From positions 1 to 64,000 of the forward strand of contig NZ_JAKZKW010000016.1 of the NCBI RefSeq assembly GCF_022808695.1: a DNA stretch of 64,000 bases. The letters run 5' to 3'. The position numbers and the translations under genes are program-made. Below the pieces are notes generated by a model, which made no database searches, was not told where the DNA came from, and saw only the letters and a list, made by a program, of their open reading frames with translations. The stretch comes from Fundidesulfovibrio soli. GTDB lineage: Bacteria; Desulfobacterota; Desulfovibrionia; Desulfovibrionales; Desulfovibrionaceae. Shown here piece after piece: positions 7,095-10,455 of the stretch (its first letter is position 1; the number at the start of each line of letters is the position of its first letter).

Positions 7095-8897
7095 TCAAAC
7101 CGCCGGCAGGCTCACCGTGAACTCACAGCCCTTGCCCTGCTCGGACACGGCCCGGATGTCGCCCTGGTGGTCCTGCAGGATGCGGTAGCACACCGAGAGC
7201 CCCAGGCCCGTGCCCCGCTCCTTGGTGGTGTAGAAGGGGTTGAAGATCTGCTTGAGCTGCTCGGGCGGCAGGCCCGGCCCGGTGTCGCGCACGATGATCT
7301 CGGCCGAATTTCCGGCAAGCCTGGTGGTCACGGCCACGCGCCCGCCCTCGGGCATGGCCTCGGCCGCGTTCTTGACCAGGTTGATGATCACCTGGCGCAG
7401 CTGCGCCGGGTCGTGCTGCACGGGGGGCAGGCCCTCGGCCAGGTCGGTGTGCAGCTCGATCCTGCGCGCGGCCAGCTCCGCCTCCATGAGCTTGAGGGTG
7501 TCGGACACGGTGGCGTTGAGCTCCAGCGGTTCGAGCTTGGGGGCCGAGGGCCGCGTGAAGTCGCGCACCTCCTCCAGGAGGGTCTCCAGGCGCTTGGCCT
7601 CCTCCTCCACCAGGCGCAGCTTCTCGTGCTCCTTGCTGTCCGCGTCCAGGGTGCGCCGCACCTGCCGGGCGAACCCGGCCATGAGCATGAGCGGGTTCTT
7701 GATCTCGTGGGAGATGCGGGATGCCGCCTCCCCGATGGCGGCGAAGCGCTCGGAGCGGATCAGGCGCTCCTGCGTGTCCAGCAGGGTGCGCAGGTTTTCG
7801 GTGATCTTGTCGCGGGCCTCGCGCAACTCGTGGGTGCGGGCCTCCACCTCGGACTTGAGCGCGCTGGACCAGCGCATGGAGAAATACACGGTCACGGCCA
7901 GGCCCATGAAGACCACGGCCTGGAAGGCGGCCACCATGAGCATCTCGCGCCGGGCGGCCTGGCCGATGATGCCTTCCACCTCATCCATGGGGGCCACGAC
8001 GGCCACGCCCCAGACCAGCGGGCGGGGCTGGTCCGGCGCGATGCGCGCCGGGGTGTAGGCGATGAGCTTGCGCACCTCCCCCCGCGCGCCGCGGTGCCAG
8101 CCGGAGACGTACCAGTCCACGCCCTCCTGCCCCGTGAGGATCTGGTCGCGCATGATGGTTTCGATGCGGGAGTAGTCCAGGTTCGGGTCGCGCCCGATGC
8201 GGGCCTGCACGGCGTCGCGGCCGATGAAGTCCTCGATGTAGTGGTCCAGGAAGATGCCCCGCTGGTCCAGCACCCAGGCGTAGCCGGTCTCGCCGGAGCG
8301 CACGTCGTGGGCGTAGCGTTGGGCCACGCTCATGGCGTCCACGACCATGAACAGGGAGCCGGGCCTGTCGGGGGCCGCGCCCACGGGCCAGTAGCGGGTG
8401 GCGACGCGCACGATGGTCTTGCCCTTGAAGGGGCCGGAGGCGGGCGTCTCGCACGGGCCGTAGAGCGCCTTGAACGGGGTGGCGGTGCCGTCGGCCCAGT
8501 CCAGGAAGGGGGTGTAGTCAAGGATCAGGGGCTCCTCCACAGGGCCGCGCTCATCGTAGAGGGTCACGTTCTGGGAACCGGGAGGCGAATAGCCGATGGC
8601 CAGCACGTCGCTGGAGCGCAGGATCTCCAGGAAGGGGGGGATGGCCCGCTCCGGGGTCTGCATGATCTCGGGGTGCTTGTGGCCGATGTTGGACAGCTCC
8701 AGCAGGCTGTCCTGCAGGTAGGCGAAGTGCTGGGTGATGTCCTGGGCGACCTTCTGGGCCAGGATGAGCTGCTGCTTGTTGAACTGGCGCGTGGCCACGG
8801 CCTGCAGCTCGCTCTGGGCCCGCTGCCCGATCCACCACATGACCGCGCCCAGGATCAGGAGCGCCGTTGTGGCGAGGATGACGAACTTTCGGGTCAT
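7095..8897 (-). CDS. membrane sensor histidine kinase with periplasmic CACHE-type domain
   Basis: The 600-residue protein has a first membrane helix at about 7-24, a large periplasmic region (30-315) of double-CACHE character (the [13 protein letters not shown] segment near 202 is typical), a second helix at about 320-340, a coiled-coil linker, a HisKA dimerisation domain with [10 protein letters not shown] (His397 is the phosphorylation site), and a HATPase domain with [19 protein letters not shown] and GTGLGL. It has no receiver domain and no response regulator gene beside it, so its partner is unknown. CACHE domains usually bind small extracellular metabolites such as organic acids or amino acids; the ligand cannot be read from the sequence. 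Confidence 0.9.
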
Positions 8898-8971: not shown

Positions 8972-9000
8972 TTGATACGTCGCGGGGCAGAGAGTATGCT
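8972..9000 (+). promoter_or_regulatory. sigma-70-type promoter for the small peptide/lipoprotein pair
   Basis: TTGATA (8972-8977) and TATGCT (8995-9000) are separated by exactly 17 bases and lie 28 bases before the ATG at 9028. Both boxes are close to consensus in an otherwise GC-rich region. Confidence 0.65.
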
Positions 9001-9027
9001 TCACAATCCAAAAGGAGGGATGCTGCA

Positions 9028-9099
9028 TGAAACGTGCGGACACGATCTTCGCCCTGACGGGCATGGCCCTCTACATCCTGGCGCTCACATGGCGATAGG
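9028..9099 (+). CDS. small hydrophobic peptide (23 aa), coupled to downstream lipoprotein
   Basis: ATG at 9028 is preceded by a strong AAAGGAGGG ribosome site and by a good promoter 28 bases upstream. The peptide begins MKRADTIFALTG, continues with a hydrophobic stretch (residues 7-22) and ends in TWR, so it could span or sit on the inner membrane. Its last codons overlap the ATG of the next gene (9089), which itself has no clear ribosome site. Translation of the lipoprotein probably depends on this ORF. It may be a real membrane microprotein or just a leader that couples translation; I know no family for it. Confidence 0.6.
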
Positions 9100-9343
9100 C
9101 AGGCCGGCCACCCTGGCGATGGCTTCGGGCCTGATTCTGGCATGCCTGCTGGCTGGCGGCTGCGGGGGCGCGCCCCGCTACGAGCGCCACGGCGCCACCC
9201 CGGCCCAGCAGGAGCAGGACAACGCCGACTGCGCCTGGGAGGCGGCCAAGGCCACCGGCAACATGCCCGGCACCGGCCGCGAGGAGCGCGTTCAGGAGCT
9301 TATGGACGCCTGCATGCGGGCCAAGGGCTACGCGAAGCACTAG
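9089..9343 (+). CDS. small predicted lipoprotein
   Basis: The 84-residue product has an N-terminal signal sequence (MAIGRPATLAMASGLILAC) ending in the lipobox-like LLAGGC, so the cysteine near residue 25 would be lipidated after cleavage. The mature part is polar and has two more cysteines (DCAWEA and DACMRAKGY); this C...C...KGY pattern is common in small proteobacterial lipoproteins of unknown role and may form a disulfide. The ATG overlaps the preceding 23-residue ORF by 11 bases. No function can be assigned. Confidence 0.7.
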   Translation: MAIGRPATLAMASGLILACLLAGGCGGAPRYERHGATPAQQEQDNADCAWEAAKATGNMPGTGREERVQELMDACMRAKGYAKH

Positions 9344-9493: not shown

Positions 9494-9991
9494 TTAGAGC
9501 AGGTCGTTGCCGCGCAGGTAGGCGTAGCCCGCCGGGGTGCAGATGTAGCCGCGCACCACGTCGCGCTGGGGCTGGCTGAGCCGGACCTTGGCCACCAGGC
9601 CGGAGGCGAAGGCGTCGTAGAGGTTGGCGCGGGCGTGATGCTTGAGGATGTATGACTTGGGCACCGCCTCCCCCATGAAGGAGAGGCGCGAGGCCAGGTA
9701 CACGTCCTTGACCAGCCTGTCGGTGGCCGTGGGGTGGTGCGGCGGCTCCTCCTGGGTGTAGGCCCGCCACATCAGGCGGCCTTCCTCGCTGAAGCGCACG
9801 CCCTTGATCTTCTGCCCGAAGGACCGGAGCTTCACCTTCTCCAGCACGCCGTCCTTGAGCAGCTTCCCGGCGGCCTTCCCATCGAAGAACAGGACGTGCT
9901 CCTCGGGGGTTATCCCCTGATATTTCTTGATCTTGTCGAACTGGTCCACAACCCGCAGCAGCAGGGCCTCGGATTCTGAGAACTCGCGCAT
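9494..9991 (-). CDS. hypothetical protein, 165 aa
   Basis: I do not recognise this protein. It starts MREFSESEALLLRVV at the ATG (9991), six bases after a GGGAGGGAT ribosome site; the open frame upstream runs into a tRNA gene and is not coding. The product is soluble, mixed alpha/beta and slightly basic. The pattern of short helices with GVLEKVKLRSFGQKIKGVRFSEEGRLMWRAYT could be a winged-helix fold, but this is only an impression. It is transcribed away from the peptide/lipoprotein pair and lies downstream of the tandem tRNA-Leu genes on the same strand. Confidence 0.7.
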   Translation of the reverse strand: MREFSESEALLLRVVDQFDKIKKYQGITPEEHVLFFDGKAAGKLLKDGVLEKVKLRSFGQKIKGVRFSEEGRLMWRAYTQEEPPHHPTATDRLVKDVYLASRLSFMGEAVPKSYILKHHARANLYDAFASGLVAKVRLSQPQRDVVRGYICTPAGYAYLRGNDLL

Positions 9992-10102
9992 GGCATCCCT
10001 CCCCAGGGGTGACGGTGCGAGCACGATACGAAAAACGGCCCTGGGCGTGGTTACGGGAGTGTGACGGGGGCCACGCCGCGTGTGACATTTGCAGAAACGC
10101 GG

Positions 10103-10151: not shown

Positions 10152-10238
10152 TGGTGCCGAAGAGAGGACTCGAACCTCCACGGAGTTGCCCCCACTAGAC
10201 CCTGAACCTAGCGTGTCTACCAATTCCACCACTTCGGC
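10152..10238 (-). tRNA. tRNA-Leu (anticodon CAG), copy 1
   Basis: The minus strand gives an 87-base class II tRNA: acceptor stem GCCGAAG/CTTCGGC, anticodon stem CTAGG/TCTAG around loop TTCAGGG (anticodon CAG), a long variable arm (TGGGGGCAACTCCG) and T-arm GGTTCGAGTCC. The CCA end is encoded. It reads CUG, by far the most used leucine codon in the genes of this window. Confidence 0.97.
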
Positions 10239-10368: not shown

Positions 10369-10455
10369 TGGTGCCGAAGAGAGGACTCGAACCTCCACGG
10401 AGTTGCCCCCACTAGACCCTGAACCTAGCGTGTCTACCAATTCCACCACTTCGGC
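10369..10455 (-). tRNA. tRNA-Leu (anticodon CAG), copy 2
   Basis: The 87 bases are identical to the first tRNA-Leu copy. The two genes lie 217 bases apart in tandem on the minus strand, each with the same hairpin downstream and a similar CGGGAGA...GCTTCTA segment upstream of the 5' end, so the whole unit was duplicated. Confidence 0.97.

Follow-up and report, generated by a model that had tools for sequence, protein, structure and literature searches.

A putative single-helix membrane microprotein encoded ahead of a small lipoprotein in the genus Fundidesulfovibrio

Small membrane regulators and the locus compared with them

MgtS, AcrZ, CydX and KdpF are small proteins of one helix that serve membrane proteins as regulators or subunits, and the 47-residue MgrB is an inhibitor of the sensor kinase PhoQ in Escherichia coli. 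Genes so short are easily missed by size cut-offs. In one account (PMC8404706), the transmembrane region of MgrB mediates the contact with PhoQ, with W20 as a key residue; a pair of lysines at the N-terminus and a pair of cysteines in the periplasm are important, and function needs the periplasmic tail and the cysteines. The same account describes MgtR as a small single-helix regulator of a membrane protein (PMC8404706). DUF1127 proteins, often under 50 residues, are presented in a further account as widely distributed and as acting by binding the sensor kinase PhoR (PMC12501420).

The window analysed here, a stretch of 64,000 nucleotides from Fundidesulfovibrio soli, holds a short open reading frame (ORF) at 9027..9098 (+), and its predicted product is a single-helix membrane microprotein of 23 residues (MKRADTIFALTGMALYILALTWR; ORF list, recurring in six of the seven genomes of the genus). 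Like MgrB as described in that account, the peptide has a single transmembrane segment, basic residues close to its N-terminus and a tryptophan that is conserved within the helix; partnership with a histidine kinase would be a further likeness, here as a candidate only. The peptide differs from MgrB in its length of 23–29 residues across copies with neither a periplasmic tail nor a cysteine, in the lipoprotein gene that follows it, and in matching no curated protein family model. Because it has no tail and no cysteine, the peptide is not an MgrB, which by analogy may nevertheless serve as the closest model of how a protein with one helix partners a histidine kinase. With the other small single-helix regulators it shares a length of a few dozen residues and one hydrophobic helix; theirs acts on a larger membrane protein, whereas the peptide has no Pfam or NCBIfam similarity, matches solved structures no better than E 0.14, and occurs in one genus. 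With the DUF1127 proteins, as that account presents them, it shares a length under 50 residues and, as a candidate partner, a sensor kinase. This comparison also ends in differences: the peptide matches no Pfam model, and it is genus-restricted whereas DUF1127 is widespread.

A literature search found no paper on the peptide, and one on Desulfovibrio ribosome profiling and small proteins returned E. coli work only. The locus offers a gene of only 23 codons that is clearly under protein-level selection in a genus of sulfate reducers. On present sequence comparisons the peptide is best filed as a family of single-helix microproteins that is new and genus-restricted but of a known kind.

Layout, selection and distribution of the 23-codon reading frame

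A consensus scan placed a promoter-like site, TTGATA-17-TATGCT, at 8972..9000 (+), with the −35-like TTGATA at 8972–8977 and the −10-like TATGCT at 8995–9000 separated by a 17-base spacer; it was the only such site on either strand between 8000 and 10500 (shuffles gave a mean of 0.2, sd 0.5). The Shine-Dalgarno-like sequence AAAGGAGGG at 9011..9019 (+) ends seven bases 5′ of the ATG at 9027 and is unchanged in the nearest relative, G001. The promoter boxes with their spacing, the ribosome site and the hydrophobic ORF described in the initial annotation were all recovered, and five further genomes carry the ORF in the same frame with recurring residues. The lipoprotein frame (9089..9343, +) overlaps that of the peptide by 10 bases (9089..9098) rather than the 11 reported earlier. 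That the lipoprotein lacks its own ribosome site held in the window, where CATCCTGGCGCTCAC stands directly 5′ of its ATG (9089) and no purine-rich site is present.

By eye, TTGATA or TTGATC followed by 17 bases and TA lies 5′ of the ORF in five of the six genomes that carry it (the window genome G000, G001, G003, G004 and G006); the counterpart in G002 reads TTGCCG-17-TAGAGA. The best promoter score was equalled by 11, 5, 34, 35, 228 and 54 of 300 shuffles in G000, G001, G002, G003, G004 and G006, respectively, so that G000 and G001 alone stand out; the highest score in G002 and G004 falls on a site other than the one aligned by eye. In G003 and G006 the −10 end is six bases 5′ of the peptide ATG, and the peptide mRNA may therefore be nearly leaderless in these two genomes.

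Conservation of the peptide in relatives was the check proposed with the initial annotation, and amino-acid conservation proved strong in the six genus copies by shuffling, frame comparison and substitution rates. Across the aligned copies, 13 first, 7 second and 19 third codon positions vary among 22 codons. Amino-acid identity summed over all pairs came to 228. Column shuffling gave 164 on average (sd 12.6), and in 20,000 shuffles the observed value was never attained; a four-row shuffle (G000, G004, G003 and G002) again gave 0 of 20,000. Among the six frames, the peptide's own had the highest identity (0.69), followed by one at 0.58 that contains stops. A chance ORF is ruled out by the column shuffles together with the frame identity. 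The copies in G001, G004, G003, G006 and G002 share 20, 14, 15, 15 and 10 of 22 residues with the window copy, and the corresponding lipoproteins are 82, 51, 44, 48 and 40% identical to that of the window; peptide identity exceeds lipoprotein identity in all five pairings.

Nonsynonymous divergence (dN) was 0.19–0.22 against a synonymous divergence (dS) of 1.0–1.6 in the six pairs that join G000 or G001 with G003, G004 or G006. The ratio was higher, at about 0.55–0.73, in those four G002 pairs for which dS could be estimated; two peptide pairs yielded no such estimate. G000 and G001 differ by two nonsynonymous changes and one synonymous change, which indicates little purifying selection in this pair alone. 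By these estimates constraint acts on the peptide gene, if not on each of its sites, and taken together the comparisons indicate that the 23-codon ORF is a real gene kept by natural selection.

Nine of the 23 residues are invariant in the six copies: D5, A9, L10, G12, A14, Y16, L18, T21 and W22. At 100 degrees per residue, D5, A9, G12 and Y16 fall on one helix face (120–180 degrees), L10, A14, L18 and T21 on a second (280–360 degrees), and W22 at 40 degrees. All copies reach a hydropathy peak of 1.99–2.31 over 15 residues, within a span long enough to cross a membrane, and have nothing after the helix that would form a tail; the peptide carries basic residues near its N-terminus. The best reading of these features is a single-pass inner-membrane microprotein, for which the positive-inside rule is the basis of a predicted N-in orientation. 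With most invariant residues on two faces, the pattern would suit a helix packed on a membrane partner rather than a passive anchor.

The ORF lies 5′ of the best-matching lipoprotein gene in six of the seven genus genomes, where it was located by position. Besides the window copy these are MKRADTIFALAGMAIYILALTWR in G001, MNKADAVFALAGMAFYVLALTWL in G004, MSKTDAYAALGGIAFYILLFTWL in G002, and 29-residue forms in G003 and G006 that end in SRADAVFALSGMAFYVLALTWL. In the order search, a profile of five copies built with G001 left out retrieved the G001 copy (E 6.7e-14); this recovery is independent, the remaining copies matching profiles by construction. With the window peptide as query, tblastn at E 1e-3 reached G001, G003, G004 and G006 and missed the G002 copy. 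The six-copy profile matched six of 348 class genomes, all Fundidesulfovibrio, the same six alone among 288 family genomes, and the window's own copy alone among 395 sampled phylum genomes, all at E 0.001, a cut-off that would hide matches of E 0.003–0.008. The order search, run at E 0.01, matched eight of 297 genomes, namely five genus members and three others with weak partial matches (E 0.003–0.008) of 11–12 residues inside frames of 61, 258 and 331 residues, which we deemed chance. With 23 positions, the profile could let divergent homologues fall beneath its reach.

The profile found nothing in the seventh genus member, G005, and gave one match per genome in each of the six carriers; among the genomes searched, none had the peptide without the lipoprotein gene. 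Neither Pfam nor NCBIfam gave a family match for the peptide at E up to 1, scans that short sequences can escape, and neither protein matched PHROGs or PADLOC. A phage origin was considered and set aside, given these two scans and a tblastn search of a phage collection with the lipoprotein, which returned nothing at E 0.01. Against solved structures, the best match of the peptide profile (window 9033–9080) was a membrane segment (RADALFALGIGIYIL) from FieF, an efflux pump, a weak similarity at E 0.14 that is probably due to chance.

The lipoprotein gene, translational coupling and rival readings

The 9089–9343 gene encodes an 84-residue protein with a LAGGC lipobox (ORF list, single-sequence model and alignment). 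Its lipobox cysteine, C25, is invariant in the six orthologues; judged by eye, the product has a signal peptide ending in this lipobox and counts as a bacterial lipoprotein, with putative lipidation. The mature protein is predicted to form mainly two helices and has two further invariant cysteines; the model, made from a single sequence, reached a mean pLDDT of 70.7 (other four models, 53.6–58.1) and matched no PDB entry at E ≤ 0.001. Searches of Pfam and NCBIfam gave one weak match each, far under the cut-off. At E 0.001 the lipoprotein matched nine of 39 genomes, including all seven of the genus (in G005, a paralogue-type lipoprotein only), and with a profile of the six lipoproteins, 30 of the 288 family genomes had a match (E 1e-5). 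The window lipoprotein is one of a larger set of small lipoproteins that end near C-M-x-x-[KR]-G-Y (homologues L008 and L010–L014), of which a genome can have as many as three (E 1e-5).

Beyond the genus, the best lipoprotein matches (E 8e-25 to 2e-22) came from genus g31, in three of its genomes. A midpoint-rooted tree with 14 rows (the six peptide-linked lipoproteins, three from g31 and five genus paralogues; three long rows, from G018, G019 and a second G001 paralogue, and all other homologues left out) groups the g31 lipoproteins with the six peptide-linked ones against the paralogues (100/100). An earlier tree was poorly resolved, with long branches; there the peptide-linked rows did not form one group (2 changes), and 12% of bootstrap trees had 1 change. 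None of the three g31 genes has a hydrophobic short ORF 5′ of it. Among 22 lipoprotein homologues whose 400 upstream bases were surveyed (one per genome; 22 of 24 counted, L090 and L094 left out), a hydrophobic ORF was within reach in two (L086 and L088), neither of them peptide-like. Because the g31 relatives and the other homologues have no such ORF, the lipoprotein can apparently do without the peptide. The initial annotation had named relatives that keep the lipoprotein but lack the ORF as evidence against itself; these exist in the three g31 genomes and do not occur among the six genus orthologues.

The g31 genes (L095 3904–4140, L096 4601–4837 and L097 4084–4320, all on the − strand) lie directly behind an NtrC-type regulator gene. 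Copies of this regulator (79–81% identity) occur at other places in six of the seven genomes of the window's genus, with no close copy in G006 (66% complete), and the 260 bases behind the regulator in these six hold no lipoprotein by eye. A tie between the lipoprotein and the regulator is accordingly not supported.

The frame at 9027–9098 had been left between a membrane microprotein and a leader that controls lipoprotein translation. Of these, the amino-acid conservation favours the microprotein, and we judge it probable that the ORF encodes a functional one. In G000 and G001 the case for a leader, whose translation would open or time that of the lipoprotein by stop-start coupling or nascent-chain arrest and which would have no function after release, draws on the 10-base overlap and a lipoprotein ATG without a ribosome site, and coupled translation is plausible there. 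Coupling as a conserved function would call for overlap or a close stop and start, no own ribosome site, and retention in relatives; overlap was found in only two of the six genomes. In G002, G003, G004 and G006 the genes are 8–15 bases apart and do not overlap, with GGAG or GGGGGA, a plausible ribosome site, before the lipoprotein ATG in G003, G004 and G006 and a weaker GAGG in G002, and coupling is for this reason unlikely to be a conserved function. A leader acting by coupling alone is likewise unlikely, since g31 has no ORF and three of the six genomes have own ribosome sites. Over 9007–9150 the predicted folding of the mRNA is indistinguishable from that of shuffled sequences (z = −0.07), and Rfam gave nothing at E up to 1, results that rule out an RNA element and speak against a leader, as does residue conservation along the whole helix, which pure coupling would not need. 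An arrest peptide would be consistent with these results, and the invariant T21-W22 near the C-terminus would suit one. Overall, we hold the leader reading to be unlikely.

Two further readings deserve little credence. A type I toxin-like hydrophobic peptide silenced by antisense RNA would agree with the size and hydrophobicity, but each genome has a single match at a fixed chromosomal place in a constant two-gene arrangement with the lipoprotein, and the opposite strand shows no promoter-like site between 8000 and 10500 in the simple consensus scan; this reading is very improbable. The frame might otherwise be no gene at all and a by-product of an N-terminally extended lipoprotein, whose frame in G000 has no stop between 8918 and 9343 and contains an ATG at 9020. 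We rejected this as extremely improbable on two grounds: across the peptide region that frame reaches an identity of 0.46 against 0.69, and a stop codon interrupts it in G004, 15 bases ahead of the lipoprotein ATG.

For the microprotein reading, we propose that a short mRNA would begin at the 8972–9000 promoter and that the strong ribosome site would drive translation of the 23-residue peptide, as the selection on it suggests. The peptide would enter the inner membrane as one helix, its K/R-bearing N-terminus probably cytoplasmic, with the faces D5/A9/G12/Y16 and L10/A14/L18/T21 predicted to pack against a membrane partner. The same mRNA would yield the small envelope lipoprotein, whose translation in the window species is probably coupled to the end of the peptide. 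The likeliest role would be that of a small regulatory or accessory envelope subunit, with the adjoining lipoprotein and the divergent sensor kinase as candidate partners; we infer that one of these, or both, may be the partner. Cooperation with the lipoprotein is suggested by their constant adjacency.

The divergent histidine kinase and its neighbourhood

The kinase gene occupies 7095..8897 (−) and encodes a membrane histidine kinase with HisKA and HATPase_c above cut-off and dCache_1 below its cut-off. Its start lies 129 bases upstream of the peptide ORF in divergent orientation, and the peptide/lipoprotein pair adjoins this gene divergently in all six carriers; the tie, absent from the initial annotation, is as constant as that between peptide and lipoprotein. 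G005 has neither the peptide nor, at E 1e-30, the kinase. Relatives of the N-terminal 350 residues of the kinase were found in 24 of 199 sampled family genomes at E 1e-30, six of them being genus members (of seven) and 18 belonging to four other genera. In these 18, no hydrophobic short ORF passed the filter used within 800 bases 5′ of the kinase. In the loci looked at, inspection by eye revealed no gene for a response regulator beside the kinase, and to call it an orphan would be only a guess.

A gene for a 168-residue protein at 9494–10000 (−), with no family match above cut-off, stands beside the pair in G000, G001, G002, G003 and G006; it has no match in G004 and G005 at E 1e-10. The pair and the kinase thus hold together more tightly than either does with this neighbour. 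The link to the kinase comes down to a single neighbourhood, within one genus, and one case of joint absence, which shared descent would explain equally well. A module for envelope sensing, in which the helix would bind the kinase transmembrane bundle and the lipoprotein would supply or relay a signal, and which would have arisen within one genus, is a tentative idea to which we assign a low likelihood; the 18 family genomes that carry the kinase without the peptide argue against the partnership. If the link were true, the locus would provide a very short natural example of one transmembrane helix tuning a sensor kinase. Farther along the same strand as the kinase gene lie two tandem tRNA-Leu (CAG) genes, at 10152–10238 and 10369–10455 (−), with flanking bases that look alike by eye.
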